From a virus, in the IMG/VR virus record IMGVR_UViG_3300025073_000117, positions 1-34,077 of that record: DNA of 34,077 nt, one strand, 5' to 3'. Both the position numbers and the translations under genes were made by a program. Below are positions 1,197 to 29,847 of this stretch, one piece after another (positions within the stretch are counted from its first letter, which is position 1; each line of letters begins with the position of its first letter). The notes under the pieces were generated by a model, which worked only from the letters and a program-made list of their open reading frames with translations, had not been told where the DNA came from and ran no database searches.

Positions 1197-3107
1197 TTGC
1201 GAAACGTGAGCAAACGAAAATCCCCCAAACCGCAAGTTGTCAATCCAACTTCCCCCAAAATGGGGATGCACTGGCTATCGAATGCAACTTGGGCACCCTC
1301 TGGTTATGGCGTGCAAGCCCGCCTGTTCATTAAACGCCTGAAAGCGTTTGGATACGAGCAGAGTATGACTGCCTTTTACGGTCTGCAAGGCCATACGCTC
1401 AACCTGGATGGGATGCTCGTTTTCCCCGTCGGCTTCCACCCGTATGGGCTGGATGTGGCCGCGAATAACGCCAATGCTGCCGGAGCCGACATTCTCCTGA
1501 CCAATATTGATACCTGGGTGGTAGAGCCGCCCATGTTTGCGAATACCCGCTGGGTCCCCTGGTTCCCGGTGGACTCCGAACCCATGCCAAAAGCAGTTGA
1601 GTCTCGCGTCCGCGTAGCGTTTGACAGGATCGTGTACAGCAAGTTTGCGCTCGCCGAATGCGAGAAGGTCGGCTTGTCGGCGCACTACGTCCCGATGGGC
1701 GTGGACACGAAGGCTATCTACCCGATGGATCGTGCCCTGGCGCGCAAAGAATTCAATGACCATATCCCCTTGAAAATACCCGATGATAAATTCATCGTTT
1801 CGATGGTTGCCATGAACAAAGGCAACCCAAGCAGAAAAGCATTTATTCAGAACATCCGGGCGTTCAAAGAACTTCACGAAAAACACCCCGACACCGCCCT
1901 GTACCTGCATTGCACGGACGGGCACGATGGCGGCCTGGGCGGGATCAACCTGCCGCCGTACATCGAAAATCTCGGCCTGAAAATCGGCGTGGATGTTTTC
2001 TTCCCAGACCAGCAGGTTATGCTGAACGGCTACCCAGATGAGTTTATGAACTCACTTTACAACTCATCCGGCGTCCTGGCGGCCTGCTCGCTCGGCGAAG
2101 GTTTTGGAATTCCGATCATCGAAGCGCAAGCGGCTGGCTGCCCGGTTATTGTGGGTGATTGGACATCCATGCCAGAACTGTTATTCGCCGGATGGAAGGT
2201 AGACAAAAAAGACGCCGAACCCTGGTGGAACTTCCTGGACAATTACATGTTCGACCCGCACTGGCACGCCATTTACGAGAAGCTGGAACTGGCCTGTGCG
2301 GAGCGGGATAACCTGGAACTACGGGCGCAGGCACGCGCCGGGGCGATGGCGTTTGACGCGGATCTGATTGCAGAGAAATACTGGAAGCCGGTACTCGCAA
2401 TAATTAACGAGAAGGTCCAGGCGGACAAGGCGCGCAAGGCCGCCATTGTCCCGGCACAACCGCGCGAAGATAATGACACGCTCATACTCCAGCAGTGCGG
2501 CAAGAACTCCGAACACGGACGCATGATGGCGCTGACCATGACCCGCAACGTGGATTACTGCCTGCGTCATAAGGTCGATTTCCAAACTATCCTGGCTGAT
2601 ATTGACCAGTACCGCGTTGAGGATAGCACGCTTGGATTTGGCAAAGTCGCCCTGATCCGCAAAGCGATGGAAGTAAAGCGCTATCGGAACATCATCTGGC
2701 TTGACGCGGATGTGATTATCGCTGACCTGTCTGTGGATATCCGTACCGCTGTTGTCCCCGGAAAGGTTGGGGCGGTCTGGCATGACCTGAAACAGAACGG
2801 GCAGATACTCGGACACCACAACGTCGGGGTGCTGGCTGTCTCGAATTGTGATGAGGTAAAAATCTTTTTCGACAAGTGGTTGGCGAAGTATCCCGGAAAG
2901 CCAGAATTCCCCTGGCTGGAACAGGGCGCATTTGCCGAAGTCGGAAAGGAAACCGGGCTGATTGCTACCATCGGCGCGGAGTGGAACTCGGTGGATTACG
3001 TCAACCCCTGCCCGCATCCGGTCATCCTGGGCTTTCACGGCTATCAAGAACGCCTGCAAGTGATGCGGGAAGCGTTGGCGAAACTGGAAGCCAATGAGAA
3101 AATTTGA
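1197..3107 (+). CDS. Two-domain glycosyltransferase (GT-B + GT-A)
   Basis: A 636-residue fusion. Residues ~22-400 are a GT4-like GT-B enzyme: MHWLSNATW start, then the nucleotide-sugar motif EGFGIPIIEAQAAGCPVIVG near 301-320 with its conserved glutamates. Residues ~420-636 are a second, GT-A-like domain with a DxD metal motif in WLDADVII (D503/D505) and a late FHGYQ. Such a protein could build a disaccharide on a phage structural protein or on host glycans; lying between capsid and tail genes favours virion glycosylation (inference). The start is uncertain: TTG at 1197 or GTG at 1206 (weak AAAG upstream); an ATG at 1260 begins the conserved region. Expression may be tuned by the hairpin just upstream. 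Confidence 0.8.
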   Translation: MRNVSKRKSPKPQVVNPTSPKMGMHWLSNATWAPSGYGVQARLFIKRLKAFGYEQSMTAFYGLQGHTLNLDGMLVFPVGFHPYGLDVAANNANAAGADILLTNIDTWVVEPPMFANTRWVPWFPVDSEPMPKAVESRVRVAFDRIVYSKFALAECEKVGLSAHYVPMGVDTKAIYPMDRALARKEFNDHIPLKIPDDKFIVSMVAMNKGNPSRKAFIQNIRAFKELHEKHPDTALYLHCTDGHDGGLGGINLPPYIENLGLKIGVDVFFPDQQVMLNGYPDEFMNSLYNSSGVLAACSLGEGFGIPIIEAQAAGCPVIVGDWTSMPELLFAGWKVDKKDAEPWWNFLDNYMFDPHWHAIYEKLELACAERDNLELRAQARAGAMAFDADLIAEKYWKPVLAIINEKVQADKARKAAIVPAQPREDNDTLILQQCGKNSEHGRMMALTMTRNVDYCLRHKVDFQTILADIDQYRVEDSTLGFGKVALIRKAMEVKRYRNIIWLDADVIIADLSVDIRTAVVPGKVGAVWHDLKQNGQILGHHNVGVLAVSNCDEVKIFFDKWLAKYPGKPEFPWLEQGAFAEVGKETGLIATIGAEWNSVDYVNPCPHPVILGFHGYQERLQVMREALAKLEANEKI

Positions 3108-4538: not shown

Positions 4539-6161
4539 ATGAACCTGCTGCTCAACAGACTTGCCAAACGGCTCTATCGAGCGCGCGATTTGTTTACCAT
4601 TGACCGTGCTACGGGTACGATCAACGGTACTGCCTGCAATCCCGGTCCCAGCACCCGCACCGTTGTAGACACAGACGGTAAACTGTCCATCGCTGGCGGG
4701 AAACTGCTGCTATCCCCGCGCACCACACCCGCCTGGGGCGACCCTGGACTGTGGTTGGATGTTGCCATCACCCGTGTCGTGGGGCAGAGGGCGTATGGGA
4801 CGATAAAGGTTGCGGATACAACCTATTATAGTACGCTTGGATATAGCACCAATAAAAGCGGCGTAACAGCTAATGCCATTATGATTGGAGACGATAATCT
4901 TTCGGCCATTGAAGCTGCGACCGGGCCGGTGGTTTATGCAGCCGTTGATGCCACCGAATACCCAATCTGTCTCATCTGCGCCCAAGGGGGTGGTGCTCAT
5001 CTCTACATCAAAATCTCCACGAACTGGTTATATTTCGGGAAGTGGGGAACGAATACCAGTACCTCGCTTTATTTCGGCATTTCTGACTATAACGCCACCA
5101 TCGAAGCCGATAACTTCATTATTCCCGTCATGCTCAAGCTGCCAGCGCCTCTGTCCAGCGACGGGTTCGGTGGCACATACCCAACCACGGACGGACTTGG
5201 TCATCCCGAAGGTGTGACAGTTGGTGCTGGAGGCGCAGGCAAGACGTGGGTTGGTGGAACCTGGGCAATCGTGGGCGGTGCGCTGGTCAATACACCGACG
5301 TTGGGGGCGGATATGTTTGATGCGGGAGCGGGTACATTCGCAAGTGGCACATATGCCTGGTCGCCCTATTCTCCTAACACAGTTACAAATGTCGGAAATA
5401 AATTAGTAGTGACATTCGTTTCGGGCGGCGATAGCGATGGGGCAACAGAAGCGCTAAATAGTGCAGCTGACTTGAACGCAAATTTAGTTGTGAATACGTG
5501 GTATGCGCTACAATTTGACGCCAACGTTAATGCTGGTGCGTCTGTTGGATTTAGGTCAAAGACATTAGGTGCAACATACGATACCGTCGTAACATCAGAA
5601 ACGCCTGTCACGATAAACCACAGATGGCGAGCGTTACATGCTACGACAAATGTTATCCATAACAGGGACATGGCCTCCGGGAAAATTGCAACGTGGGATA
5701 ACATTACTCTAAAGCCCCTCACCCTCTCCTCCCTCTTCACCTCCATCTCCGAATCCACCCCCGATGTCGTGGCGAGCGTGGATTTGGTCTTGACTGCTGG
5801 AACGCAAGCAGGATTGGTACTCTGTCTGGACGATGCAACTACTCCGGCAAACTTCATCATCGTCTACTGCGATGGTACAAATGTCATTGTAGATAAATGC
5901 GTGGCTGGAACGTACACCAACGTCCTCAGCGGCGCAGTCACCTATGGCGCAGGCTACATGCTCCGAGTGGACATCAACGATGGAGTCGGGCGGGTGTACT
6001 ACAACAACCTGCTGGTTGGCACGTTCACCGTTGCCGATGCAGGTGTGAAGGACAATGTTCTGCACGGGTTGTTCAGCACCTACTCTGCCAACAGCATTGA
6101 CAATTACAACATCTACGCCAAAGGCACAAGCGGTGAATACGCGCAGTTGGGAGTTGTGTAA
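4539..6161 (+). CDS. Large beta-rich structural protein, possible concanavalin-like fibre
   Basis: A 540-residue protein, rich in Thr, Val, Gly, Tyr and Asn. It appears modular: a beta domain to ~170, a Gly-rich linker (GAGGAGKTW), a middle domain ~230-380, and a C-terminal domain (~390-530) with alternating strands such as AGLVLCLDD, NFIIVYCDG, YMLRVDIND and VYYNNLLVGTF, the pattern of LamG/concanavalin-type jelly rolls that bind glycans. ATG 4539 is chosen (GGAG four bases upstream) over an upstream in-frame TTG. It could be a head fibre or receptor-binding protein; this is inferred from composition, not from a recognised family. Confidence 0.55.
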   Translation: MNLLLNRLAKRLYRARDLFTIDRATGTINGTACNPGPSTRTVVDTDGKLSIAGGKLLLSPRTTPAWGDPGLWLDVAITRVVGQRAYGTIKVADTTYYSTLGYSTNKSGVTANAIMIGDDNLSAIEAATGPVVYAAVDATEYPICLICAQGGGAHLYIKISTNWLYFGKWGTNTSTSLYFGISDYNATIEADNFIIPVMLKLPAPLSSDGFGGTYPTTDGLGHPEGVTVGAGGAGKTWVGGTWAIVGGALVNTPTLGADMFDAGAGTFASGTYAWSPYSPNTVTNVGNKLVVTFVSGGDSDGATEALNSAADLNANLVVNTWYALQFDANVNAGASVGFRSKTLGATYDTVVTSETPVTINHRWRALHATTNVIHNRDMASGKIATWDNITLKPLTLSSLFTSISESTPDVVASVDLVLTAGTQAGLVLCLDDATTPANFIIVYCDGTNVIVDKCVAGTYTNVLSGAVTYGAGYMLRVDINDGVGRVYYNNLLVGTFTVADAGVKDNVLHGLFSTYSANSIDNYNIYAKGTSGEYAQLGVV

Positions 6162-9382: not shown

Positions 9383-10960
9383 ATGAGCGTCAAAATTGCT
9401 TCGCTGTATGCGGAAATTTCTGCGGACACTACCCGGCTCGAAAATGGGCTGAAAAGCACCAAGACCGGACTCGCTGGCGTTAAAGAGGGTTTTGGCTCTG
9501 TTGCCGCGGCTGCCGGTATTGCAGTTACGGCGTATTATGCTATTAGCAAGGCGATTGAAGCAACAGTTGGGGAATATGTTAAATATGCCGACCAGGTGCG
9601 CCGTTTATCCCAACTCAACGGAACAAACGCCGAACAAACCAGCCGCCTGATCCAAGTCACAGACGATTACAAAATAAGCGTAGACGCGTTGTCAATGGCA
9701 ACCCGCAAACTGGCGGGCGAAGGCAAGAGCCTGACAACCGAAACACTGGCGGCAATGTCTGACGAGTACCTGGCGCTCGGAACGAGTGCGGAAAAGACGC
9801 GCTATTTGATTGAGAATTTCGGGCGAACGGGTACGACATTCGCGGAGATAATGGGGGCAGGAAGTAAGGCAATCCGCGATCAAGCTGCTGCTTTGTCTGG
9901 CGGCCTGCTTATGACTGAGCGGTCATTAAAGGCGACGCGTGATTACGAAAAAGCTCTCGACAAACTACAAGACGCCTCCAAAGGCGTCAAGGTATCCATC
10001 GGGCAATATATCATTCCTGCCCTTAATGATTTTCTGCTTTATGTGGACAAGTCTATAAAGGGCTGGGAAACATTTTTTAATTATCTTGCAGATAACCGGA
10101 AAGCAGTTGACGGTATGCGCTTGTATCGGCAAGAAGTAGATTCTGCCACTCTGTCATATATGGAGTGGGCTTATGCGATGGAACACGCTGGCGAGGTGGC
10201 GGAAACCATACCGCCAACCCTTGATGAAATCGCCGATGCCGCAAAACGGGCGCAAGACGCCATGATAGATCAGACTGCATGGGAAGTTATGTACACTGAC
10301 GCGAAGGACGCGGCAGAGCGAAGCGCGCAAAGCATGGATTGGCTCGGAAAGCAGGTTCAGGGAATTATGGGCGACATGGGAAACGAGGGGGCTTTGGTCT
10401 GGAACGGCTTTCTGGCCGCGACTGGTGAAATTTCACCCGCCGCCGCGCGTGAGTTCGCGCGCGTGTATAGCATTTTCTTGACAGCCGAGTCAATGCTGAA
10501 GAGGGGCATTGCCGTTCCTATAGTAGTGAGTTTCCTTGTTCAGGCAAGTGGTGGAGGCGGAGGTGCTGATATATGGGGCAATCCTTATCCTACTAGCGCC
10601 CCGGCGGTTGGTGGCGGCGGGACTATGACACTTGCTCCCTGGGCCTCTGCCGCAGATATTGCTTATGCCAACGCACATCCAGAAATATATGCTCCGACTG
10701 GCGAAGCGGGCGGCGGCTCTTTCTCCGGCTGGGCAATGGTAGGCGACGCGCCCGGCGGCGGCAAGACGCCCTACACCGAGTACGTCTATGCTCCGCAAGG
10801 CGCAACCGTGTACAACCAGTCGCAGATGAGCGGACGCGCCGCCCCCCCGATGGCCTCGGGCGGGGTGGTGCCGCCGACGAAGGATACAATCAAATTGGAT
10901 CCCGAATCAATCCGGGAACTGGCGTTCGCGCTGAAAGTTGAATTGGCGGCAGTGCTATGA
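9383..10960 (+). CDS. Tape-measure protein
   Basis: 525 residues. The N-terminus (VKIASLYAEISADTTRLENG) and following alpha-helical, coiled-coil-rich region with one hydrophobic stretch (SVAAAAGIAVTAYYAI, ~35-55) are typical of siphovirus tape-measure proteins, which set tail length and pass through the host envelope. The C-terminal ~150 residues are Gly/Ser/Pro-rich with GGGGG and QASGGGGG-like low-complexity runs. By the usual 1.5 angstrom per residue, a tail of roughly 80 nm is expected. It follows the chaperones by 6 bases and overlaps the tail-tip gene by 4. Confidence 0.85.
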   Translation: MSVKIASLYAEISADTTRLENGLKSTKTGLAGVKEGFGSVAAAAGIAVTAYYAISKAIEATVGEYVKYADQVRRLSQLNGTNAEQTSRLIQVTDDYKISVDALSMATRKLAGEGKSLTTETLAAMSDEYLALGTSAEKTRYLIENFGRTGTTFAEIMGAGSKAIRDQAAALSGGLLMTERSLKATRDYEKALDKLQDASKGVKVSIGQYIIPALNDFLLYVDKSIKGWETFFNYLADNRKAVDGMRLYRQEVDSATLSYMEWAYAMEHAGEVAETIPPTLDEIADAAKRAQDAMIDQTAWEVMYTDAKDAAERSAQSMDWLGKQVQGIMGDMGNEGALVWNGFLAATGEISPAAAREFARVYSIFLTAESMLKRGIAVPIVVSFLVQASGGGGGADIWGNPYPTSAPAVGGGGTMTLAPWASAADIAYANAHPEIYAPTGEAGGGSFSGWAMVGDAPGGGKTPYTEYVYAPQGATVYNQSQMSGRAAPPMASGGVVPPTKDTIKLDPESIRELAFALKVELAAVL

Positions 10961-12612
10961 CCCTGCAAGTCTTTTCCAGTTATGCTTTCGAGATTTATAA
11001 CGGGAGTTGGGTCAATGTCACGTCAGACGTGAGACACGACCTGCGCCCGAAATGGAATCGCGGGATTATGTCAAACCGTCAGGCGGACCGCGTGGGGCAA
11101 CCCGGCTTCCTGACGTTCACCCTGAATAATTCCATTTCAAACTCTGCGGGGCTGGCGGGCTACTACTCCCCCGGACATGCAAATTGCTGGGCTGGGTGGA
11201 CCACCGGGCTGGCGGTCAGACTGTCTTTCGGCTTCGACGGCGTAACCCGCTATAAATATTATGGGCATATCAAGCCGGACGGGATAGACGTGGAGCCTGG
11301 TATTTATGGCGCGCGCACGGTTGCGGTAACTTGCGGCGACTTTATGTGGCGGGCTGCGCTGCACGAACTCAAGGGGATGGCATTCGCGCAGAACCAGAAC
11401 ATCGGTCAACTCGTGACGCTAATCAATGCCAATATGCCTGTTGCGCCGCTGGCTACGTCGATCGCCACCGGGGTCGAGAATTTCCCCACCATTTTCGACA
11501 TGCTGGGAACGCGCACTACCCCACTGGCGGAGTACATAAAAGGAGCCATGAGCGAGTGGGGTTATATCTATGTCATCGGCGACAAGACCGGCGGTGAAAC
11601 GCTGGTTGTTGAGAACCAGACCACCCGCACGAGCAGCGTGGCTGTGACCAGCCTGTCCCTCCCGTCCGCTGAGAGCGAAGCGATCATGGACGAGAGCGGC
11701 GTGACGATCCAGGACGAATTGGGGGTGGACATCCTAGCCGACGCCGTGCAAAGTGCCAGTTTCGACAATACGATGGTCGAGGGGATGGTCGTGTCCTATG
11801 GAAAAAATGTTGCCAACCGGGTGATAGACACCGCCTACCCCCGCCGGGTGGACGCGGCGGCCACGATTGTTTTGTGGGCATTGCAGAAGTCTTTCCGCGT
11901 GCGCGCGGGTGAGACCATCACCGGCTATGTCGGGGCATACCGTGATCCTGCCAATCCTAAAACGAAAGTCTCTGGCATTGATATGCAGGCGATGGTATCC
12001 GGCACGGATTACACCGCAACAGTAAACGAAGACGGCACGGGCGGGAGCATGACCGCCTCCCTGGTGGTTACTCCCGACTTCACCGACACCGCCCGCGTTT
12101 CCTTCACCCTGCAAAACACGCACGCTTCCACCGACCTGTGGATACAGATTTTGCAAGTCAAGGGGAAGGGCGTCTACGTGTACGAGACCATCCAGAACGT
12201 CCAGGATGACACTGCGGCGCAAGCAGCACAACACGGCGTTATCCCCCTGACGCTGGATCACAAGTACCAGGCAGACGCGCGCAAGGCCGCAACCTTCGCC
12301 TCCTATGTACTCTCGAAGGAAGCCTACCCGCGCCAGGCTGTTGACGCCTGCCCAATTTGGGCGAACTCGGATTCGATGCGCATGGCTGGATTTTTACAAC
12401 TGGAGCCAGGAACAAAGGCGACATTCGTCGAAACACAGTCCGGCGTTTCGCATGATTATTTTATCAACGGCTACTCCGCCGAGTTGTACCCCGGAAAAGA
12501 TGGGATGCCTTATGTACTCTGGACGCCAGTATTGAAGGACGATCCGGGGTTTTATGTATTCTGGATTGCTGGAGTAGCACGCGCTGGAATTGATACTGCC
12601 CCTGGATTTTAG
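10957..12612 (+). CDS. Tail-tip / distal tail protein
   Basis: 551 residues, beta-rich, directly after and overlapping the tape measure by 4 bases, the conserved place for distal-tail and baseplate-hub proteins. The N-terminal 130 residues (FEIYNGSWVNVTSDVR, GYYSPGHANCWAGW, RLSFGFDGVTRYKYYGHI) resemble Dit-type adaptor domains; the middle has a near-repeat IMDESGVTIQDELGVDI; the rest could be a hub/Tal-like region. No catalytic motif is seen. Function assigned by position. Confidence 0.6.
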   Translation: MTLQVFSSYAFEIYNGSWVNVTSDVRHDLRPKWNRGIMSNRQADRVGQPGFLTFTLNNSISNSAGLAGYYSPGHANCWAGWTTGLAVRLSFGFDGVTRYKYYGHIKPDGIDVEPGIYGARTVAVTCGDFMWRAALHELKGMAFAQNQNIGQLVTLINANMPVAPLATSIATGVENFPTIFDMLGTRTTPLAEYIKGAMSEWGYIYVIGDKTGGETLVVENQTTRTSSVAVTSLSLPSAESEAIMDESGVTIQDELGVDILADAVQSASFDNTMVEGMVVSYGKNVANRVIDTAYPRRVDAAATIVLWALQKSFRVRAGETITGYVGAYRDPANPKTKVSGIDMQAMVSGTDYTATVNEDGTGGSMTASLVVTPDFTDTARVSFTLQNTHASTDLWIQILQVKGKGVYVYETIQNVQDDTAAQAAQHGVIPLTLDHKYQADARKAATFASYVLSKEAYPRQAVDACPIWANSDSMRMAGFLQLEPGTKATFVETQSGVSHDYFINGYSAELYPGKDGMPYVLWTPVLKDDPGFYVFWIAGVARAGIDTAPGF

Positions 12613-12623
12613 GAGATTACACC

Positions 12624-13166
12624 ATGACATCTTATATTGATTTGGCCGCTTTACATGATCCAACTCTGGGCGTAGTTGTTCCAGTGGCGTGGCTGGATGG
12701 CATTAATACCAATTTTCAGGTATTGCGCGCGGACGCCTGTTTGGTAAAACGCACATCCAATCAAACCCTGGCAAATGATACCCCAACCAATATCTTATTC
12801 AATGCCGAGCGCGAAGACTCGAACGCCATGCACGACAATTCAACCAACCCTGACAGGATTAACATTTTACGAACAGGAATTTATCTGGTTTCGGTGAGTT
12901 TCCTTCAATTTACAGCTCATGCCACCGGCTTTGATTATTACTCCATTCAGGTTAATGGCGGTACGGCTGATTTGGCCTATGAAATCAAACCTGCCAATAG
13001 TTCCATTGACAACACTTTTAATGTTTCCTTCATAACGCGCCTGGCCGCCAGCGATTATCTAACCGTGTTAGCGTGCCAAACCAGCGGCGGCAATCTCGAC
13101 ATCATCTACGATTCTGACGGCGCAAGGCCGAATTTCGGCGTTACACTGCTGAAAGATTTGACATGA
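12624..13166 (+). CDS. Tail fibre / receptor-binding protein, C1q-like jelly roll
   Basis: 180 residues. After ~35 residues of attachment region, the rest follows the ten-strand C1q/TNF pattern: KRTSNQTLANDTPTNILFN, then RINILRTGIYLVSVSFLQF, YYSIQVNGG, FNVSFITRLAASDYLTVLA and a final FGVTLLKDL strand. Trimeric C1q-like heads are common at phage tail tips where they bind host surface glycans or proteins. GGAG lies before ATG. Good pattern match, but host specificity cannot be inferred. Confidence 0.65.
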   Translation: MTSYIDLAALHDPTLGVVVPVAWLDGINTNFQVLRADACLVKRTSNQTLANDTPTNILFNAEREDSNAMHDNSTNPDRINILRTGIYLVSVSFLQFTAHATGFDYYSIQVNGGTADLAYEIKPANSSIDNTFNVSFITRLAASDYLTVLACQTSGGNLDIIYDSDGARPNFGVTLLKDLT

Positions 13167-13177
13167 TCGGAGCAAAA

Positions 13178-13507
13178 ATGAAAAAAAATCTCTGGAAGCT
13201 TCTTGCGATTACCCTGCTCGTGGTTTTTGCGCTGGAACTGGTTATCCCGCTCGTGGCGGTAAACCTGCCGCGCCGGACGGCTGTTCAGATGGTGGTGACG
13301 GTCTACGCCGCGCTGGGCGGGGAGTTGCCGGAAGCGGGGAGCCATTTCCGAGATGTTGCGGGACTTGCAGAACAGGAAGCCATCGAGCAAGCCTGGCAAC
13401 TCGGTATCACTGCCGGGACGAGTGGGGACACGTTCTCGCCCGAAAGCAAAGCGCACGGCTGGCAATGGCTGATTTTTATCGGCAAGGCAATCATGCTTTT
13501 CCAGTAG
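13178..13507 (+). CDS. Secreted/anchored mini-protein with an SLH-like domain
   Basis: 109 residues. Signal peptide or anchor at 1-27 (MKKNLWKLLAITLLVVFALE), then one S-layer-homology-like repeat: FRDVAG, EAIEQAWQLGITAG, DTFSPES, then a helix WQWLIFIGKAIM. SLH domains bind pyruvylated secondary cell-wall polymers. ATG 13178 has GGAG at 6 bases; an in-frame ATG 13163 overlaps the previous stop and is less likely. Sitting among tail-fibre genes, it could be a cell-wall-binding lysis or adsorption factor, or modify the host surface after infection; all are inference. Confidence 0.6.
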   Translation: MKKNLWKLLAITLLVVFALELVIPLVAVNLPRRTAVQMVVTVYAALGGELPEAGSHFRDVAGLAEQEAIEQAWQLGITAGTSGDTFSPESKAHGWQWLIFIGKAIMLFQ

Positions 13508-13516
13508 GAGCAGTCA

Positions 13517-14086
13517 ATGGCAAAAATATCACTACAACCCCTCAGCACCACCGCACCCGTCGCAACGGATAACTATCTCGTTGATGAGAGTATGGCAACC
13601 GTGCCGGTTACCAAGCGCAAGGCGTGGTCAACACATCTGGCAAGTGCCGCCGAAATCAATACCGGTACGGACGCGACCAAGATCGTTCCGGTTGACCAAT
13701 TTGTAGCATCGAAGCGCAACCTGAAACACATTGAAATCGAGTTGGTTGCAGGAACTACCGATGTGGCAGTGGCGGCGTCTATTGATGGCGACAAACGCCT
13801 CCCCACCGTGACGGGAACAATTGTAGATGTGGGCGCGTATGTTTCCACCGCTGGTGTAACTGGCAATATGGTGATAGACATCCACTTGGCCGGTACTACA
13901 ATTATGACAACCAACAAGATTACCATCGCGACCACACAAAAATCAAGTGAAGATGGCGGGGCTACTCAACCGGCCTTGACCACAACGGCATATACCGCCA
14001 ATGCGATCTTGACGTTTGACGTGGATAGCATACAGACAACCCCCGCGAAGGGGCTGGTCGTCTGGCTGGACATTCGGGAATCTTAA
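13517..14086 (+). CDS. Tail fibre-like protein
   Basis: 189 residues. The opening AKISLQPLSTTAPVATDNYLVDE and the EINTGTDATKIVPVDQFVASK motif are widespread in phage tail-fibre stalks. The remainder is Thr/Val/Ala-rich beta structure with low charge. GGAG precedes ATG. It is the second of three small fibre-type proteins in a row, which may assemble into separate short fibres at the tail tip. Confidence 0.6.
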   Translation: MAKISLQPLSTTAPVATDNYLVDESMATVPVTKRKAWSTHLASAAEINTGTDATKIVPVDQFVASKRNLKHIEIELVAGTTDVAVAASIDGDKRLPTVTGTIVDVGAYVSTAGVTGNMVIDIHLAGTTIMTTNKITIATTQKSSEDGGATQPALTTTAYTANAILTFDVDSIQTTPAKGLVVWLDIRES

Positions 14087-14087
14087 C

Positions 14088-14693
14088 ATGCCAAATCCCA
14101 CCATCGGAAACAAAACGCGTGGAACCAGTTCGCCTATTTCTCACGACAACAACGGCGCGCTCTTGATTGTTGCCCTGTGGGGCGGGCAATATGCTGGCGG
14201 CGGAGGGCCTACTGGCGTGTCAGTAACCTACAACGGGGTTGCCCTGACGCAAATTTGCGAGTACAGCAATTACTGGTATACCTCCTGGTGGGTTTTGCTC
14301 ACCCCGGCAGCAGGGGTGCATGACTTGGCTTTCGGCAATAGCGGCGGCGGATCCATCACCGGGGCATATATTTATTCGATTATTGACGGGGCAAATTCAA
14401 TCCCCGTCAATTTTGCAGGATACGATTATCTTTCAAGCGCGCCGAGTCAGTCTGTTACCTCGGCTGTGAATAACCTGGTGCTGGACATTGACGCGAACGG
14501 TACAGAAGAACCGACCCCCACCGCCGGGCAGACGACACAACTCTCTGGCGCATCATGGGACAAGGGCGGCAGCCTGGTGTCAGTGGGCGCGTCCACAACT
14601 ATCAGTTATTCTCATGCTAGCGGGCGCGGGTCGTTGTCGGGGGTCGAGATCGTTTACTCGCCGTCTTTCATTCCTCGCGTTATGATATTCTAG
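14088..14693 (+). CDS. Beta-rich tail protein, possible fibre tip
   Basis: 201 residues, low charge and rich in Gly, Ser, Tyr and Trp (YSNYWYTSWWVLL, GGGSITGAYIYSI), consistent with an all-beta adhesin-like domain; a strand pattern LLIVALWGG and VSVTYNGVALTQI recurs. ATG 14088 directly follows the previous stop. This kind of protein is frequent near tail fibres and endolysins in phages; a glycan-binding role is plausible but not shown. Confidence 0.5.
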   Translation: MPNPTIGNKTRGTSSPISHDNNGALLIVALWGGQYAGGGGPTGVSVTYNGVALTQICEYSNYWYTSWWVLLTPAAGVHDLAFGNSGGGSITGAYIYSIIDGANSIPVNFAGYDYLSSAPSQSVTSAVNNLVLDIDANGTEEPTPTAGQTTQLSGASWDKGGSLVSVGASTTISYSHASGRGSLSGVEIVYSPSFIPRVMIF

Positions 14694-16048: not shown

Positions 16049-16098
16049 CACCCTGGCTTGACTGTCCTCCAGGCAGTCAAGCCAGGGTGGTTTGTTTT
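16049..16098 (+). terminator. Intrinsic terminator of the late operon
   Basis: A perfect 16-bp stem (16049-16064 with 16074-16089), 9-base loop and a TTTGTTTT tract at 16091-16098. It ends rightward transcription and meets the leftward cassette region. Confidence 0.9.
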
Positions 16099-16099
16099 A

Positions 16100-16208
16100 G
16101 CCTTCTACGGCTCGCGTTACCCGCGCGCGGGCTTCGCAGAACCTTTGCTAGTTTTAGAACGACTTTTCGGCGCAGACTTCCGCGCGTCGGGTACACGCTT
16201 TGTTATGC
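16100..16208 (-). repeat. attC-like recombination site 1 (last of the array)
   Basis: On the minus strand: GCATAAC (R'' like), a long imperfect hairpin and an end CCGTAGAAGG. The arms 16114-16130 and 16180-16198 are identical in complement over 17 bases except for two single extra bases (T and C), the extrahelical-base signature of integron attC sites. The stop codon of the adjoining gene lies inside R''. The R' core is degenerate (GTA rather than GTT). Confidence 0.5.
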
Positions 16209-16394
16209 CGCGCTCTGGATATGCACGGTTTCTTTGACCTCAAGAGTGACTTCTAATTGTTCCTTGAGTTCATAAACGCCAACCAAGACAACTTCTCCCT
16301 TCTTGGCGCAATCTTCGACAGTATTCTCGCAGAGCAAAAATTCATCTTCATTGCCCTCATTTTCACGATAGATAAACAATTTTTTAGGTAACAT
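16203..16394 (-). CDS. Small acidic hypothetical protein (cassette gene 1)
   Basis: 63 residues, acidic (MLPKKLFIYRENEGNEDEFL onward), beta-type C-terminus. AAGGAAATAAA precedes ATG. Its TAA stop lies within the R''-like end of the adjoining attC-like hairpin, as in many integron gene cassettes. No family recognised. It is in the leftward array of one-gene units between the lysis terminator and the early operon. Confidence 0.55.
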   Translation of the reverse strand: MLPKKLFIYRENEGNEDEFLLCENTVEDCAKKGEVVLVGVYELKEQLEVTLEVKETVHIQSAA

Positions 16395-16433
16395 TTTATT
16401 TCCTTTCGCCTGACTTCCTTTTGCAAGGGAGCG

Positions 16434-16480
16434 GCATAACGGTTTGTGTGAGCCGCCCTATGCGGGCACACTCACTTTTG
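16434..16480 (-). repeat. attC-like site 2 (weak)
   Basis: Ends on the minus strand with CACACAAACCGTTATGC, the same spacer-plus-CCGTT layout as the other sites. Inner arms GCCC and GGGC plus GAG/CTC give a short interrupted stem, with no clear R'' partner. The gene stop (TAG, 16458-16460) lies in the hairpin loop. Weaker than sites 1, 3 and 4. Confidence 0.35.
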
Positions 16481-16811
16481 ATTTACTTGATTTTTTGCGG
16501 GCAGAATCGCCACACTTGGAAACAGTCGGCTCCACGCTTTTGTTAGAAGGCGTAGGAAGATAGCGATAATCCTTCTGCTGTTCTGGATGCTTGGTTAGAT
16601 ATGTGACCAAACAAGCCTTATGCCAAATTTGCTCTACAACATGATCGTAATCGGCGGTGACACGACAAGTACAAACATCCATTGTGTAGGCTAACTTATC
16701 AATGCCGTGACCGTTTATAGTCTCGCTACACTCGGGGCATATCCAAGTTTGCTCACGGTGATGGTCGAGCTTGGCAAAATTTACGAGAGACTGAAATTTA
16801 TACTTTATCAT
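16458..16811 (-). CDS. Zinc-ribbon-like hypothetical protein (cassette gene 2)
   Basis: 117 residues. CPEC (25-28) and a later CTC/HKAC set could bind one zinc; the C-terminus is Lys/Ser-rich and disordered (SARKKSSKSKVS). A strong AAAGGAG precedes ATG. Flanked on both sides by attC-like hairpins, with its stop inside site 2. Lower GC than the late operon. Function unknown. Confidence 0.55.
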   Translation of the reverse strand: MIKYKFQSLVNFAKLDHHREQTWICPECSETINGHGIDKLAYTMDVCTCRVTADYDHVVEQIWHKACLVTYLTKHPEQQKDYRYLPTPSNKSVEPTVSKCGDSARKKSSKSKVSVPA

Positions 16812-16828
16812 TTGACTCCTTTCGAGCC

Positions 16829-16896
16829 TTCTAACGGGTTAGATAAGCGGCAGGGTTGGAAGGAGGTCCTGCCGCCAAGCGCCTCACGCGTTCTCT
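16829..16896 (-). repeat. attC-like site 3
   Basis: Minus strand: AGAGAAC, an outer part that pairs imperfectly (AACGCGTGAG with CTAACCCGTT), an inner perfect 8-bp stem (16847-16854 with 16868-16875) and the end CCCGTTAGAAGG. The CTGCCGCTTAT spacer before the core resembles classical attC L' boxes. The gene stop (TGA at 16884-16886) lies inside. Confidence 0.5.
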
Positions 16897-17138
16897 AGTG
16901 CCTTCCCTGGCGCGACTATAACCCTGTCCGTCTTGATCTGGTGTTGGGCGGCTTTCAGGTGGCGAACATACACCGCCAAAACTTCTTTATATGCCATAAG
17001 CAATGCTTGATGATCCAAAGCGTATTTAGTAGATTTATTTTTCAGGCTATCGTATGCCTTTTGGATACGATTCACATCAGCCGTAATACGCTTTACATTA
17101 TCTGTCAAACTTATAAGTGCTAGGTTAATCGTTGCCAT
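16884..17138 (-). CDS. Coiled-coil hypothetical protein (cassette gene 3)
   Basis: 84 residues, almost entirely helical (DNVKRITADVNRIQKAYDSL, then a second helix to VRHLKAAQHQIK), likely a coiled-coil dimer. ATG 17138 is chosen because AAAGGA precedes it; an in-frame upstream ATG (17183) would lie inside attC-like site 4. Its stop falls in site 3. No family recognised. Confidence 0.55.
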   Translation of the reverse strand: MATINLALISLTDNVKRITADVNRIQKAYDSLKNKSTKYALDHQALLMAYKEVLAVYVRHLKAAQHQIKTDRVIVAPGKALENA

Positions 17139-17167
17139 AAGCAATTCCTTTCTGCGTTGAGCAGTCC

Positions 17168-17226
17168 GCCCAACGGTTTGCATAAGCGGCGCGTTTCTCA
17201 GCGTCCGCCTTCATGCGGTGTTCGAC
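17168..17226 (-). repeat. attC-like site 4 (best example)
   Basis: 59 bases from GTCGAAC to GTTGGGC on the minus strand. The arm CCGCTTATGC (complement of 17180-17189) pairs with GCATGAAGGCGG (complement of 17205-17216) perfectly except for two single extra G bases, the extrahelical bases used by integron integrases. The end reads AAACCGTTGGGC, a GTTRRRY core. The gene's TGA stop is inside. Confidence 0.6.
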
Positions 17227-17618
17227 CCCGTATCAAACACCCTGCGCTCTACAACCTGAGTGTTTTTCGAGAAGAAGCCAGGCAGAAAACCAACTTGACG
17301 GCCTGTTTCATCTTCCCAAAAAGAATGCTCATCGCAGAGCGGGAAAAACTCAACAATATTGTGATGGGTATGATATTTTACCCAACCTGTACCAGTGGCT
17401 ATCTGACCACAGCGACACCGCGCAACTTCGACGGGGCGCAAAGCTGACGCACGCTCACACATACGGCGGTACAGTTCGTCGGCGGACAAACTCGCTCCAC
17501 GCCGACAATCGCCACGATGGAAATACATTTCACGCATACTCAAATGGTCATCGCCGCACTCAATGCACTGCGGGAATTCGTGGATAATTCGGAAAACTAA
17601 TTCTTCTGTAAATTCCAT
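17211..17618 (-). CDS. Cys/His-rich hypothetical protein (cassette gene 4)
   Basis: 135 residues with several possible zinc ligands: CIECGDDH (~18-25), HRGDC, CRCG and LCDEH. This is the layout of small zinc-ribbon/treble-clef proteins. ATG 17618 is preferred (GAAGG and GGTGG upstream) to the GTG at 17627. Its C-terminal codons run into attC-like site 4. No enzyme motif recognised. Confidence 0.55.
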   Translation of the reverse strand: MEFTEELVFRIIHEFPQCIECGDDHLSMREMYFHRGDCRRGASLSADELYRRMCERASALRPVEVARCRCGQIATGTGWVKYHTHHNIVEFFPLCDEHSFWEDETGRQVGFLPGFFSKNTQVVERRVFDTGSNTA

Positions 17619-17639
17619 TGGAACCACCTTCGCTTAGGG

Positions 17640-17690
17640 GTCGAACGGACTGGCTTTACTTGCCGCCGATTCGGGCAGGCAAAGATTGAA
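17640..17690 (-). repeat. attC-like site 5
   Basis: Plus-strand arms CTTGCCGCC (17659-17667) and GGCAGGCAAAG (17674-17684) pair over 9 bp leaving two unpaired A bases, again the two-bulge attC pattern. On the minus strand it ends AGTCCGTTCGAC. The R'' half is poor. The gene stop (17656-17658) lies within. Confidence 0.45.
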
Positions 17691-17967
17691 TATAAGATAC
17701 AAAGAGGGCAAATTGCGCCTGCATACCCACACCAAAGGCGGTCAAGTGCAAGCGTAGTTGGGCGGCCACACGACCGGGCAATAGCCACAAACTAAGCCAA
17801 AACCACTGCCAGCGAGAATACCACTGCACGGTTAGGGTGGTGTTATTTGCAAGCAATACCTTACCGTGCCTTCTATGCTTGCCGGTGGAAACACTTATAT
17901 ACTGCCCTTCCCAATCGCGAGCAGATGCGTTTGTTGTTATTTTTATTTCACTTGTAGAGTCGATCAT
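17656..17967 (-). CDS. Small hypothetical protein with aromatic/hydrophobic segment (cassette gene 5)
   Basis: 103 residues: a beta N-terminal half (GQYISVSTGKHRRHGKVLLA, SH3-like in feel), then a Trp-rich hydrophobic stretch (WQWFWLSLWLLPG) and a helical end, so it may be membrane-associated. CGGAG sits 6 bases before ATG 17967. Flanked by attC-like sites 5 and 6. No family recognised. Confidence 0.45.
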   Translation of the reverse strand: MIDSTSEIKITTNASARDWEGQYISVSTGKHRRHGKVLLANNTTLTVQWYSRWQWFWLSLWLLPGRVAAQLRLHLTAFGVGMQAQFALFVSYIQSLPARIGGK

Positions 17968-17982
17968 GTTTGCTCCGAGGCT

Positions 17983-18025
17983 GCCCAACGGAAATGATTA
18001 CCTGCCGATGACGGCGGGTTTGGAT
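17983..18025 (-). repeat. attC-like site 6 (short)
   Basis: Minus strand ends ATTTCCGTTGGGC (GTTRRRY core). Inner arms ACCTGCCG and CGGCGGGT pair over 8 bp with one wobble around ATGA. At 43 bases it is shorter than usual. The stop of the adjoining gene (17998-18000) is inside the stem. Confidence 0.4.
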
Positions 18026-18234
18026 TCGCTGTCCGATTCGGCGCGCCCGTCATCGGTCAGGCGCATCTGGTGTTCGGCGGCTTCAATGCGAATTACTAAT
18101 CTTGACGAGCAACGCGTACACGCCAACGAATCTCCGTTGCTTATCGCCTCTTCCATGCCAGGCGGAAGTTTATCAATCATACTTCCGCATTTTGGGCAAA
18201 CGATTGCTGTTGACAAGAACACTGGTATTTTCAT
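17998..18234 (-). CDS. Zinc-ribbon hypothetical protein (cassette gene 6)
   Basis: 78 residues with two CxxC knuckles: CPKCGS (13-16) and CTRC (39-42), a classic zinc ribbon, then an acidic tail. GAAAGG precedes ATG 18234. It is the first one-gene unit of the attC-like array and the closest to the early operon. Small zinc ribbons can act in nucleic-acid or protein binding; nothing more specific is visible. Confidence 0.6.
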   Translation of the reverse strand: MKIPVFLSTAIVCPKCGSMIDKLPPGMEEAISNGDSLACTRCSSRLVIRIEAAEHQMRLTDDGRAESDSESKPAVIGR

Positions 18235-18285
18235 GTTGCCTTTCTCGGCGTGCCGCCGAACTAGGTGTTTAGCAGAATGTACGTT

Positions 18286-18372
18286 TTAGAAGCCCAACCT
18301 AACAAAGCGTTTGCGTTTCTTGCTCGCCGGCTTCTTTCCGGTGACGTTCTCAAATCCACGCTCGATGCACAT
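18286..18372 (-). CDS. Very small basic protein at the array boundary
   Basis: 28 residues, ending in a strongly basic stretch (KKPASKKRKRFVR). AAAGGAG lies 7 bases before ATG. It is 13 bases downstream of the zinc-ribbon gene of the helicase operon. Its last codons contain CGCTTTGTTAGG (complement of 18298-18309), which looks like an attI/attC core, so this may be a gene whose end was altered where the first cassette entered. Confidence 0.4.
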   Translation of the reverse strand: MCIERGFENVTGKKPASKKRKRFVRLGF

Positions 18373-18385
18373 TTTTATTCTCCTT

Positions 18386-18547
18386 TCAACGCACCGTGAA
18401 CCGGCGCACTTTTCCGCAGACCGAGCAGGTGTAAATTTCGTCCGTGCCGGTTTCTTCGGTCAACGCGAACGGCTGATCACACCCGCACACGTCGCAGAAT
18501 AGCCAGAGAATAAAATCAGTCACGGTACTGAGCAGCGGGGTTGTCAT
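18386..18547 (-). CDS. Small zinc-ribbon protein
   Basis: 53 residues with two knuckles: CDVCGC (~18-23) and CSVCGK (~41-46) followed by a basic end (VRRFTVR). It begins at an ATGA overlap with the helicase stop, so it is translationally coupled to the replicative helicase. It could be a replication or transcription accessory factor; inference from coupling only. Confidence 0.6.
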   Translation of the reverse strand: MTTPLLSTVTDFILWLFCDVCGCDQPFALTEETGTDEIYTCSVCGKVRRFTVR

Positions 18548-19944
18548 TGGTTTTTCATCTCTCCCCATAAGGGACTGTTTTCACGGCGGGTCAAATGTAC
18601 CCGGATGTGCGAATCTTCCAGTTCGCGGCCTTTTTTCACCCACAAGGTCGCCAGTCGCTTTTTCTGCTCCGGGGTCATAAAGGCGAATTTGCTTTCCGGG
18701 TCAAACTCTGTCAGGTACAGCACCAGGTCAGCGTCATAGATGACCTGCCCGGACCCGCGCAAGTTTGATTTGGCGTTGGCTTCCGCCCCGGCCTTGTCCA
18801 TCCCGGCCTTCGTGACAGAGTGAATAACGAATCCGGCCAGGTCCAGGTCGCGGCAGATGATTTTCAGGGCGCGGCTGATATTCGATGTTTTCTCAGTCTC
18901 ATTCGATCCGGCGTCCTCGAGGAGCATCAGGTAATCCAGCACGAACCACTGGATATTTGATTCTCGTTTCAGGCGTGCCAGGCTCGCCCGCAGGCCGCCG
19001 GTATCCCGGACCCGGTCATCCAGGTAGAACGGAAGTGTCTCAAGTTCCCCGATGGTCTGCGAGATTTTTATCCAGTCTGATTCCAATATTTTACCGGTGC
19101 GCATGTTCCGCGAACGCACGCCGCTCTGTGCGGATAATATCCGGCGGGTGGTTGCCTCCGCCCCCATTTCGAGCGAGAAAAACGCACCCGGCGCCGACTT
19201 GGACATTTCCAGCGCCGCGCCGATGGCGAACCAAGTCTTGCCCAGCCCCGGCTCGCCCGCCAGGAGGGTCAGTTCGCCGGGCTGCTGGCCGCCGGTCTCG
19301 TTGTCCAATTTCGGCAGGCCGATGGGAATACCCCACATGTCACACGGGGCGGTAGAACGTTCCTTGATTTTGTCATACACCGTTGACAGGATGGGCGACA
19401 GCCGTTTGACCTCATGCCCGGTGGACTGGCACAGCAAGCGGTCTATCTCGGTGCGGGTTTCGGTCAGCCCTTTGTCGGTGGGGATATTGTCCTGGTACGC
19501 AACGGTTGCCAGGGCATTGGCGGCGGTAAGCATCCCCCGGCGGATGGCCGCCTGTTTGATCTGCCGCCCGTAGGCCTCGGCGTGCAGGCTGGTGGGGACT
19601 TGGTTGAGCAGGGCAGTCAAATATGCCGGCCCCCCGATTTCATTCAACCGCCCGGCGGTGTCCAGTTCTTCGGTGAGGGTCAGGAAGTCCAGCGGAATGT
19701 GCTGCTCATGCAGGCTGGTAAACGCCTCCCATATCCAGCGGTGACGAACGATGTAGAAGTCATCGGCTTGCAGGAATTGCGCCAGGTCGTGGTAGGCTTC
19801 CGGGTTTATCAGCACCGCCCCCACTGCCGCCTCTTCGGCTTCGCGGCAATGGGGGATGACCGGCGTGGAGGGTGACGAAGTTTCCCAAACGGATGGCGGT
19901 TCGGGTGGTGCGGTTCGGACAGGGAGAGGGGTTGTCATTGTCAT
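18544..19944 (-). CDS. dnaB: DnaB-like replicative helicase
   Basis: 466 residues, the family's normal length. DnaB N-terminal domain at ~32-135 (EAEEAAVGAVLINPEAYHDL), RecA-like helicase domain from ~200 with Walker A GEPGLGKT (230-237), SLEM (257-260), Walker B WFVLDYL (D337) and the C-terminal RGSGQVIYDAD loop. It unwinds DNA ahead of the replication fork. ATG 19944 overlaps the stop of the preceding gene (ATGA). Residues 1-30 are a Pro/Thr-rich extension. The gene defines the region as replication genes, next to a structured intergenic segment that may hold the origin. Confidence 0.9.
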   Translation of the reverse strand: MTMTTPLPVRTAPPEPPSVWETSSPSTPVIPHCREAEEAAVGAVLINPEAYHDLAQFLQADDFYIVRHRWIWEAFTSLHEQHIPLDFLTLTEELDTAGRLNEIGGPAYLTALLNQVPTSLHAEAYGRQIKQAAIRRGMLTAANALATVAYQDNIPTDKGLTETRTEIDRLLCQSTGHEVKRLSPILSTVYDKIKERSTAPCDMWGIPIGLPKLDNETGGQQPGELTLLAGEPGLGKTWFAIGAALEMSKSAPGAFFSLEMGAEATTRRILSAQSGVRSRNMRTGKILESDWIKISQTIGELETLPFYLDDRVRDTGGLRASLARLKRESNIQWFVLDYLMLLEDAGSNETEKTSNISRALKIICRDLDLAGFVIHSVTKAGMDKAGAEANAKSNLRGSGQVIYDADLVLYLTEFDPESKFAFMTPEQKKRLATLWVKKGRELEDSHIRVHLTRRENSPLWGEMKNQ

Positions 19945-22106: not shown

Positions 22107-22586
22107 TCATTCACAGAAATTCAACTTGGCGAATTCGCCATGAAGTCGTTTTGCGGCATTATCGTAAGCGCGAGCCGCATCTTCACGAATTGAAAACGTG
22201 CCGAGGCAATAGTGTTTTTGATTAACCTTGATTTGTGCTTGCCAACCGCGCTTATTTTTGAATACACCTTTGAAGCCAGAAGTATTATCAGCTTGTTTTC
22301 CTCTATTCATCATATTTTGCGAATTTGTACAAACGCGCAGATTTTTTTCTTGATTGTCTAAGGTATCGTGATTTATATGGTCAGTAATCATTCCTCTCGG
22401 AGTTCCCGCAACGATGGCGTGCATCTTAATCTTTTTTTTCTTTCCAGATTCAGACGAACTCCGCATCGCAAAAAAAGACTTTGTGTGTGAATTCCATGCC
22501 GCAAACCACTTGTATTGATTTAACTCATCAAATCTCCAATCGTCTACAATGGCAACTTGTCCTTGCGTGAGTTTGATTTCTTTCAT
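22107..22586 (-). CDS. HNH homing endonuclease with AP2 domain
   Basis: 159 residues. Start MKEIKLTQGQVAIVDDWRF is the usual start of phage HNH-AP2 nucleases. HNH core at ~55-95 (MHAIV, ITDHINHDTLDNQEKNLR, NSQNMMN) and an AP2 DNA-binding domain at ~102-158 (SGFKGVFKNKRGWQAQIKV, GTFSIREDAARAYD). ATG 22586 has AGGAG 8 bases upstream; the longer in-frame start at 22709 would translate through a structured leader. It is a selfish endonuclease gene inserted between early genes, with its own promoter. A different family from the HNH gene at 3814. Confidence 0.9.
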   Translation of the reverse strand: MKEIKLTQGQVAIVDDWRFDELNQYKWFAAWNSHTKSFFAMRSSSESGKKKKIKMHAIVAGTPRGMITDHINHDTLDNQEKNLRVCTNSQNMMNRGKQADNTSGFKGVFKNKRGWQAQIKVNQKHYCLGTFSIREDAARAYDNAAKRLHGEFAKLNFCE

Positions 22587-22600
22587 CGCAGTTCTCCTAA

Positions 22601-22710
22601 ACAAATTCCCGCACCCAACCCGTGCTTGATGAGAGCAACCGACGCGAGTCGGGGGGTTAGATGCGGGGATTTGTAAAAGAAAATTCGCGTTCATGGTTGC
22701 TCTCATCAAG
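22601..22710 (-). promoter_or_regulatory. Structured 5' leader, copy 2 (interleaved stems)
   Basis: Two stems interleave: 22601-22620 pairs with 22655-22674 (17 of 20), and CTTGATGAGAGCAACC at 22625-22640 pairs perfectly with 22695-22710. A third hairpin CCGAC/GTCGG (22639-22652) sits inside. As minus-strand RNA the order is B, A, P3, B', A', then AGGAG and the HNH-AP2 start. The order allows a pseudoknot, with stem A' ending just before the ribosome site. The same layout occurs upstream of the methyltransferase gene. Confidence 0.6.
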
Positions 22711-24145: not shown

Positions 24146-24176
24146 TTTGGCTTTCCTTTCACTAATTCGGAACAGG

Positions 24177-24248
24177 TTGCGGGGGCGGGATTTGAACCCG
24201 CGACCTCCAGGTTATGAGCCTGATGAGCTACCGCTGCTCTACCCCGCG
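24177..24248 (-). tRNA. tRNA-fMet (CAU), initiator type
   Basis: Minus strand gives a full cloverleaf: acceptor CGCGGGG with CCCCGCA, D-arm GAGC/GCTC with a GG loop, anticodon loop CTCATAA (anticodon CAU), TTCAAAT T-loop. Position 1 C faces A at the acceptor end, the C1-A72 mismatch typical of bacterial initiator tRNA, and the sequence is close to E. coli tRNA-fMet. The anticodon stem is AGG/CCT instead of three G-C pairs. The CCA end is only partly encoded. Confidence 0.9.
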
Positions 24249-28671: not shown

Positions 28672-29847
28672 CTAATCTTTCGACATGCACAGCACTACTT
28701 CGTAATCTATCCGGGGGCTGCCTTTGTTTTCAGCCAATCGGCGGAAGAAACTTTTACTTTCCCGGCGCTTTTCTTTGCCATCGAAGTCGTGTTCGGTGGA
28801 ATGTACCAGCATGGCATGATGTTCGTGGAGCGTGACGAATCCGGCCGCCTCGCACATCTGCCGCCACTGGTCGCAGAACGGGACAATCTGCTTGTTTTTG
28901 ACGAAGTCTTTACAAACCCAGACGGCATGACCGCCGGGAATAAGCACCTGGTACACCTGGTCAACGATGGTGCGGGCGGCGGTCCAGAAGTCGTCATCAT
29001 CTTCATTTGCCAGCTGCCCATCTGTTTTTCCGTAGGACGTATCGCGCTCTTTCGACCAGGATGGATAGGCTTGGTCACTTTTGCCCTTCACCTGCTTGAC
29101 GGTCAACTTTCCTTCTTCGGCATATTTACCAAGCATCTGCCAACCACCATCGGCACTCTGCCCCTTGAAGGGCGGGGAGGATATTGCGGCGTCGAAGCCG
29201 TTGGCTTTCATTGCGCCGAGTTGACCGGGGGTGGCGCCGTACTGGTCGCCATGTCCACAATGTTCTTGCCCGCTTTCCTGACCGATTCGGGCTTCGGAAT
29301 ACGGCGGACTGGATAGTGCGCCAGAAATACTGTAACCTTTTGCGATGGCTTCTCTCGCTGGCGTTCGTTTATGTCCCCCCGACTCGACCTTGTCCCAATC
29401 AATTCCGCTGCCGTGCTCGTTTTCCTTTATACAATCGGCGTAAGGTGGACTTGATACAACAATCCCCGCTTTGGTCAACACCTTCGCCAACTCCCGGCTA
29501 TCGCCATGCAGCAACGCTGCATCACCAGACCAATTCGGCATGGTGCGGAAACGGGAGTTCCACAAAGCGATATTGGCGTTTCCGAGATCCGCGAATTTTG
29601 CTTCAAGTTCTACGCCACGCCATTTCAGGCCGAGTCGCATCGCGTCCAACGCGCCCAGGGCGACTCCGCCGAAGGGATCAATTATTGTATCGCCAGGACT
29701 AGCCCACCCCTCCGCCCGCATGTGTTCGTAAATACGGCGGATGAGTTTTGATGAGAATTTCGCAGGGTGAGTAATTGCATCCGGGACAATCATTCCCTTC
29801 CATGCGGAAGGATAACAGCCAACCCACTCGTCAATGATGATTTTCAT
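28672..29847 (-). CDS. DNA methyltransferase
   Basis: 391 residues. SAM-binding motif DPFGG at 57-61, catalytic motif SPPY at 133-136, and two further SPP motifs at 180-183 (SPPY) and 224-227 (SPPF). The C-terminal half has VYQVLIPGGHAVWVCKDFV. The SPPY motif is typical of N4-cytosine (or N6-adenine) amino-methyltransferases. No paired endonuclease is visible, so it probably protects phage DNA from host restriction. GGAG lies 4 bases before ATG. It is preceded by a structured leader and its own promoter; it is divergent from the late operon. Confidence 0.85.
   Translation of the reverse strand: MKIIIDEWVGCYPSAWKGMIVPDAITHPAKFSSKLIRRIYEHMRAEGWASPGDTIIDPFGGVALGALDAMRLGLKWRGVELEAKFADLGNANIALWNSRFRTMPNWSGDAALLHGDSRELAKVLTKAGIVVSSPPYADCIKENEHGSGIDWDKVESGGHKRTPAREAIAKGYSISGALSSPPYSEARIGQESGQEHCGHGDQYGATPGQLGAMKANGFDAAISSPPFKGQSADGGWQMLGKYAEEGKLTVKQVKGKSDQAYPSWSKERDTSYGKTDGQLANEDDDDFWTAARTIVDQVYQVLIPGGHAVWVCKDFVKNKQIVPFCDQWRQMCEAAGFVTLHEHHAMLVHSTEHDFDGKEKRRESKSFFRRLAENKGSPRIDYEVVLCMSKD

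Follow-up and report, generated by a model that had tools for sequence, protein, structure and literature searches.

In this work, we describe an array of six small gene cassettes in a phage genome, IMG/VR virus record IMGVR_UViG_3300025073_000117, whose positions 1 to 34,077 are hereafter called the window. Both strands of the region were read. On the minus strand, from position 18261 to 16108, six small promoterless open reading frames (ORFs) lie between attC-type recombination sites. From the sequence features presented below, we consider it likely that this stretch is an integrase-less phage integron, composed of an attI-like site at the end of a dnaB operon and six attC-ended cassettes, upon which an integron integrase would act in trans. 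By current definitions, the element is a cluster of attC sites lacking an integron integrase (CALIN) with an attI-like site, and not a complete integron.

Results

Organization of the array and complementarity of the cassette ends

In integron cassettes, the TTRRRY bases that follow the initial G are paired, once the cassette is circular, with a RYYYAAC box near the 3' end. Seven junctions were located on the minus strand of the window, at positions 18261, 17989, 17646, 17174, 16835, 16440 and 16108, delimiting the six cassettes and their leftward ORFs of 63 to 135 aa (Table 1). Taken from the G of GTT, the junction cores read CTAGTTCGGC at 18261, CCGTTGGGC at both 17989 and 17174, CCGTTCGAC at 17646, CCGTTAGAAGG at 16835 and CCGTTATGC at 16440, and the last one, at 16108, is a degenerate CCGTAGAAGG. 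In all six cassettes, the GTTRRRY sequence at the 5' end and the RYYYAAC box preceding the next junction are exact reverse complements of each other, free of mismatches over 7 to 10 nt, with the boxes placed 56-118 nt ahead of that junction. The complementary pairs of cassettes 1 to 3 are GTTCGGCGGC with GCCGCCGAAC, GTTGGGC with GCCCAAC, and GTTCGACCCC with GGGGTCGAAC; those of cassettes 4 to 6 are GTTGGGCGG with CCGCCCAAC, GTTAGAAGGC with GCCTTCTAAC, and GTTATGCCGC with GCGGCATAAC. The chain score calculated over these links was 26 in the window, and the highest value among 1000 dinucleotide shuffles was 16 (0/1000 reached the observed value).

The array displays a GC content of 48.9%, compared with 54.5% elsewhere, and the GC content at third codon positions (GC3) ranges from 0.44 to 0.56 among the cassettes; no excess of promoter-like sequences was found in the array. 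An initial annotation of this DNA had proposed an integron-like array in a phage devoid of integrase, made of six small, promoterless, leftward and comparatively AT-rich genes, and all of these points are sustained by the attC architecture, the base composition and the integrase searches reported below. That annotation had also noted zinc-ribbon motifs in three of the products: the Cys-pair proteins are indeed present, although their resemblance to zinc ribbons lies below the Pfam cut-offs, and searches of the six products against Pfam and PHROGs yielded nothing other than sub-threshold zinc-finger matches.

Detection of attC sites with covariance models

No window sequence entered either of the two covariance models: R1 was derived from 38 attC ends of chromosomal contigs, nearly all of Chloroflexota, and R2 from 31 such ends in other viral contigs. 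Infernal searches were run with default filters, as runs with the filters off missed long attC sites, apparently through a hit-length cap. R1 found sites 3, 6, 1 and 5, in this order of significance (E 1.7e-8, 1.2e-5, 5e-4 and 2.5e-3), with no other match anywhere in the window up to E 10, and R2 found the same four sites (E 1.1e-8 to 1.1e-3), its next match having only E 0.6. Covariation was visible in the L''/L' stem of the alignment of R1 itself, and the model alignments of the four sites show L''/L' stems with unpaired bases. The loop of site 2 resembles at the DNA level the attC sites of two other phages (85% over 48 nt in contig G033, 83% in G443) and one of a chromosomal Chloroflexota contig (L180, 81% over 42 nt). 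Altogether, four attC sites are recognized by the covariance models and six by cassette-end complementarity, CALINs being defined by at least two.

The covariance-model test had been proposed in the initial annotation, which relied on perfectly paired hairpins with extra bases; the unpaired bases are confirmed in the four aligned stems, and the hairpin argument, although essentially correct, proved to be weak evidence. Generic folding energies were unremarkable (z -0.35 to -2.3), so hairpin folding was set aside as a line of evidence.

An attI-like site at the head of the array

The CCGTT-type junctions previously assigned to attC hold for the attC sites and not for the left end: the first junction, at 18261, reads TA/GTT (the slash marks the junction), compared with CC/GTT at attC, and the left end of the array is best described as an attI-like site. 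A position weight matrix (PWM) derived from 11 attI sites adjoining IntI genes of Chloroflexota chromosomes ranked this site 2nd of 68122 positions and 2nd among the 1076 with GTT; a score as high was reached with just 2 of 1000 matrices whose columns had been permuted. The window has GTACATTCTGCT at 18271-18282 and, after it, AAACACCTA/GTT. An almost identical stretch, GTACATTCCGCTCATACACTA/GTT, is present in the viral contig G028, where the attI sits approximately 0.7 kb after an intI gene.

This attI subtype is present in six other viral contigs (G028, G039, G441, G442, G443 and G444), beside intI in the first and ahead of arrays in the other five. A pattern search of IMG/VR returned four contigs, of which G441 and G442 were new and have attC directly behind the site, and the subtype was found in G443 and G444 as well, again with arrays; G001 carries a shorter relative of the pattern. 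Conversely, the exact phage pattern was found in 0/396 genomes of the class of the reference host. The portal and terminase families of the attI-bearing phages are unlike where tested; therefore, the docking site has not been passed down together with the head genes. An array headed by an attI-like site, and a docking site apparently common to unrelated phages, are points that go beyond the initial annotation.

A family of small genes of 65-69 aa (FRPDL..Y.VY...), with a basic C-terminus, ends a few nucleotides ahead of the attI in phages. It is whole in G039, G441 and G442 and interrupted in G028 and G443; copies are located in L252 (9001-9210), L291, L288, L246 and L010, with an in-frame TAG in those of G028 and L010. 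In the window, the 28-aa ORF that precedes the attI-like site matches G442 weakly (60% over 10 aa, E 0.045), and its similar end is only suggestive of a relationship with this family.

Integrase search and probable host

The window record gave no match to TIGR02249, the family of integron integrases, and no tyrosine recombinase (PF00589) was detected either in this record or in contig G041, which is 99.9-100% identical to both window ends and spans a portal-capsid stretch of about 4.7 kb absent from the window. G041 likewise contains no integron integrase. Since neither the window nor G041 holds intI, the activity that moves the cassettes must be supplied in trans. Of another 28 viral contigs, G036 alone scored above the integron-integrase family cut-off, and G028 lay near it, with a full-length intI match of 257 bits. 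Among public genomes, the 3' pattern of these attC sites comes mostly from Chloroflexota; IntI is present in 15/20 Chloroflexota genomes with this attC type and in 74/298 genomes of a class sample. Because of the attC type, the hosts are probably Chloroflexota bacteria.

Several observations were made on these contigs. In G028 (L246), intI and a phage-type tyrosine integrase (859-1908 and 4899-5828) each start directly after an attC core (CCGTTATGCCCATG and CCGTTATAACCCATG), in the manner of cassettes; alternatively, the contig crosses a prophage edge inside a host integron. The intI of G036 (L245/L206, 35898-36833) scores 428 bits and is followed by attC sites near the contig end; it may be either phage-borne or part of a host flank. 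In G041 (L216), the stretch between the portal and capsid genes (~9955-14611) encodes a 583-aa protein resembling thiamine-diphosphate enzymes such as acetolactate synthase, possibly an auxiliary metabolic gene.

Cassette content and turnover in other phages

The array-bearing viral contigs were partly found by means of the attC pattern, and their number is no measure of frequency. In G001, whose DnaB is 54% identical, the same place after dnaB is occupied by an attI followed by an entirely different set of cassettes, a DNA methyltransferase among them; G045 (DnaB 40% identical) has no array after dnaB, and G044 (terminase 69%) likewise carries an array in its genome. Cassettes are exchanged between other phages, in which they occupy different positions: cassette 1 of G444 and cassette 4 of G039 display 90% protein and 85% DNA identity, cassette 2 of G444 shares 84% of its amino acids with a cassette of G035, and the methyltransferase cassettes of G025 and G044 are 54% identical. 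The comparison with related phages that the initial annotation had called for indicates that the cassettes are not fixed.

Sister phage arrays harbor orphan methyltransferases (Dam, C5, MT-A70 and N6_N4) and an RNA ligase, and the host cassettes observed include defence-type genes (TIR, GmrSD and EcoRI methylase domains). The median cassette ORF is 91 aa in phages and 216 aa in chromosomes, the cassettes having been found in the same way. Methyltransferases amounted to at least 6/73 phage cassettes and at least 2/87 chromosomal ones, counts too small for an enrichment to be claimed. The RNA ligase is a cassette of G039 (L252, 11683-12318), and its presence suggests the repair of tRNA cut by host defence.

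Features of the window

The coordinates of the array and its surroundings are given in Table 1. A small CxxC ORF after dnaB is found in G001 too. Outside the array, a two-domain glycosyltransferase-like gene (1197-3107, plus strand), with relatives in several other contigs, lies directly after the capsid genes, and the minus strand encodes an HNH endonuclease with an AP2 domain, likely a homing endonuclease (22107-22619), and a phage DNA methylase of the N6_N4 type (28672-29847). An Rfam scan of the window detected only a tRNA, and a tRNA-Met (CAT) gene is located in the early region (24175-24248, minus strand).

Table 1. Coordinates of the cassette array and adjacent features in the window.
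Feature	Coordinates	Strand	Description
DnaB-like replicative helicase gene	18544..19944	-	Upstream in the leftward unit of the array; Pfam DnaB/DnaB_C, PHROG 19
Small non-cassette ORF following dnaB, with Cys pairs	18386..18547	-	Weak zinc-finger matches only
28-aa ORF ending KKRKRFVRLGF*	18286..18372	-	Possible remnant of the small gene preceding attI in other phages
attI-like insertion site	18255..18282	-	GTACATTCTGCTAAACACCTA/GTTCGGC; PWM of chromosomal attI; motif common with G028 and five other phage contigs
Cassette 1	17989..18260	-	272 bp; ORF 17998-18234, 78 aa, Cys-pair protein; 10-nt complement
attC 1	17983..18078	-	R2 E 1.3e-5, R1 E 5e-4
Cassette 2	17646..17988	-	343 bp; ORF 17656-17967, 103 aa, C-terminus encoded within attC; 7-nt complement
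attC 2	17640..17763	-	Missed by both models; complementarity and DNA similarity to other attC
Cassette 3	17174..17645	-	472 bp; ORF 17211-17618, 135 aa, Cys-rich; 10-nt complement
attC 3	17168..17226	-	Most canonical; R1 E 1.7e-8, R2 E 1.1e-8
Cassette 4	16835..17173	-	339 bp; ORF 16884-17138, 84 aa; 9-nt complement
attC 4	16829..16949	-	Complementarity alone; full length not found by models
Cassette 5	16440..16834	-	395 bp; ORF 16458-16811, 117 aa, Cys-pair protein; 10-nt complement
attC 5	16434..16548	-	R2 E 1.1e-3, R1 E 2.5e-3
Cassette 6	16108..16439	-	332 bp; ORF 16203-16394, 63 aa; 10-nt complement
attC 6	16102..16208	-	Last site, core degenerate CCGTAGAAGG; R2 E 4e-5, R1 E 1.2e-5
Perfect 16-bp inverted repeat	16049..16089	.	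Terminator-like for plus-strand lysis genes; right-hand limit of the array

Discussion

The interpretation of the array as an integrase-less phage integron implies a mechanism in which an integron integrase, supplied in trans during infection or in a cell with another intI-bearing element, would recombine the folded single-stranded attC of free cassettes into the phage attI, the same enzyme also excising cassettes. This integrase would most likely be borrowed from the host. Transcription reading through from the dnaB operon would serve the promoterless cassette genes, as the array has the same orientation as this operon, displays no promoter excess and ends at the inverted repeat at 16049-16089. 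The cassettes may constitute a changeable accessory set for host takeover or counter-defence, the latter role being proposed because the orphan DNA methyltransferases and RNA ligase of the sister arrays fit it.

Several points weigh against this interpretation. The covariance models are home-made and distinct from the IntegronFinder model, sites 2 and 4 were missed by both, and the last core is degenerate, so that part of the attC sites could be decaying. No convincing homologues of the products of cassettes 3 and 5 were found in INPHARED phages or in 298 genomes of the Chloroflexota class, nor any homologue of weight of the cassette 3 protein in IMG/VR. Moreover, we found no phage that is near-identical yet carries another array; turnover in the window lineage is deduced from more distant relatives, and we infer the host and the source of the integrase from the attC type alone.

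The degenerate last core and the two weak attC sites, together with the partly degenerate array of G001, would also suit a fossil, that is, a piece of a host integron (attI and cassettes) acquired in a single event of illegitimate recombination and since then decaying, with no further exchange. We consider this improbable, given that the cassette-end complementarity is intact in all six cassettes, the attI subtype recurs in other viral contigs with different cassettes, several phages have cassettes in common, and the phage cassette ORFs are shorter than the chromosomal ones. Far less credible still is a chimeric assembly joining a phage contig to part of a host integron, even though the array junctions of the window phage are covered by a single contig with no second one: the array is placed between dnaB and the lysis genes, dnaB, small ORFs, attI and an array are arranged likewise in the phage contig G001, and the arrays of G039 and G442 also lie among phage genes. 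As for ordinary moron genes of a phage with unrelated terminator hairpins between them, the unexceptional hairpin energies and products resembling nothing known would be expected of them, yet they are contradicted by a sequence-specific attC architecture (complementarity, shuffles, and R1 and R2 matches) that is unmatched elsewhere in the window, and we give this explanation hardly any credence.

A further proposal concerns only the origin of the integrase and is a sub-case of the integrase-less phage integron, with which its likelihood overlaps. Integrase-less phages would parasitise G028-like ones in co-infected or lysogenic cells, the enzyme being provided by a phage or prophage rather than by the host chromosome. 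G028 combines its divergent intI with a phage-type attI and with head, portal and terminase genes, and the absence of the attI subtype from the 396 chromosomes points in the same direction; however, only one IMG/VR contig with a G028-type intI was found, and the 4.9 kb on the left side of G028 may be host sequence flanking a prophage. This variant is possible, albeit rather doubtful.

Phage CALINs are already known. Qi et al. (2023; PMC9892861) reported 17 of them, virulent phages included, with methyltransferases among the cassettes, and IntI1 recombined 5/6 of the phage attC sites tested into attI1. Those of Tetrasphaera phage TJE1, Pseudoalteromonas phage PH101 and Polaribacter phage P12002L resemble the window array in being attC clusters without intI and, in TJE1 and PH101, in having co-directional cassettes; as in the sister arrays, DNA methyltransferases occur among the cassettes (PMC9892861). 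In contrast, the window array, known here from its sequence, has six cassettes with Chloroflexota-type attC and starts at an attI-like site that is common to unlike phages and absent from the host-class genomes examined. The cryptic Shewanella prophage M16-3 is similar in that a host-type attI stands before its CALIN, but differs in also holding a complete integron with intI (PMC9892861). The sedentary chromosomal integrons of Chloroflexota share the attC consensus (AAAGCGTGCA ... TAACGCAAACC GTTRRRY) and an attI with a TA/GTT junction; unlike the window array, they have intI, their cassette ORFs are about twice as long and the exact phage attI subtype was not seen in them. The logic of attI, cassettes and attC is also that of class 1 integrons, from which the array differs by having no intI, no known cassette promoter (Pc) and no resistance genes. 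The novelty of our findings resides in an attI subtype common to unlike phages and kept without an integrase.

Taking these comparisons further, unrelated phages may hold in common, and trade, a dedicated docking module with an attI specific to phages, often preceded by a small conserved gene, and draw cassettes, counter-defence genes among them, from a common pool by means of the integrase of the host or of another phage, a parasitic or 'satellite' integron whose existence we judge to be evenly balanced between true and false. The question raised is which integrase recombines the phage attI.

Phages swap genes by homologous and illegitimate recombination. If our interpretation is correct, an integrase-less docking site would represent a site-specific and fast route to change phage accessory genes. 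It would also connect the cassette pools of phages and hosts. Considering the defence-type cassettes of the hosts and the methyltransferase and RNA ligase cassettes of the phages, the same platform could serve both sides.

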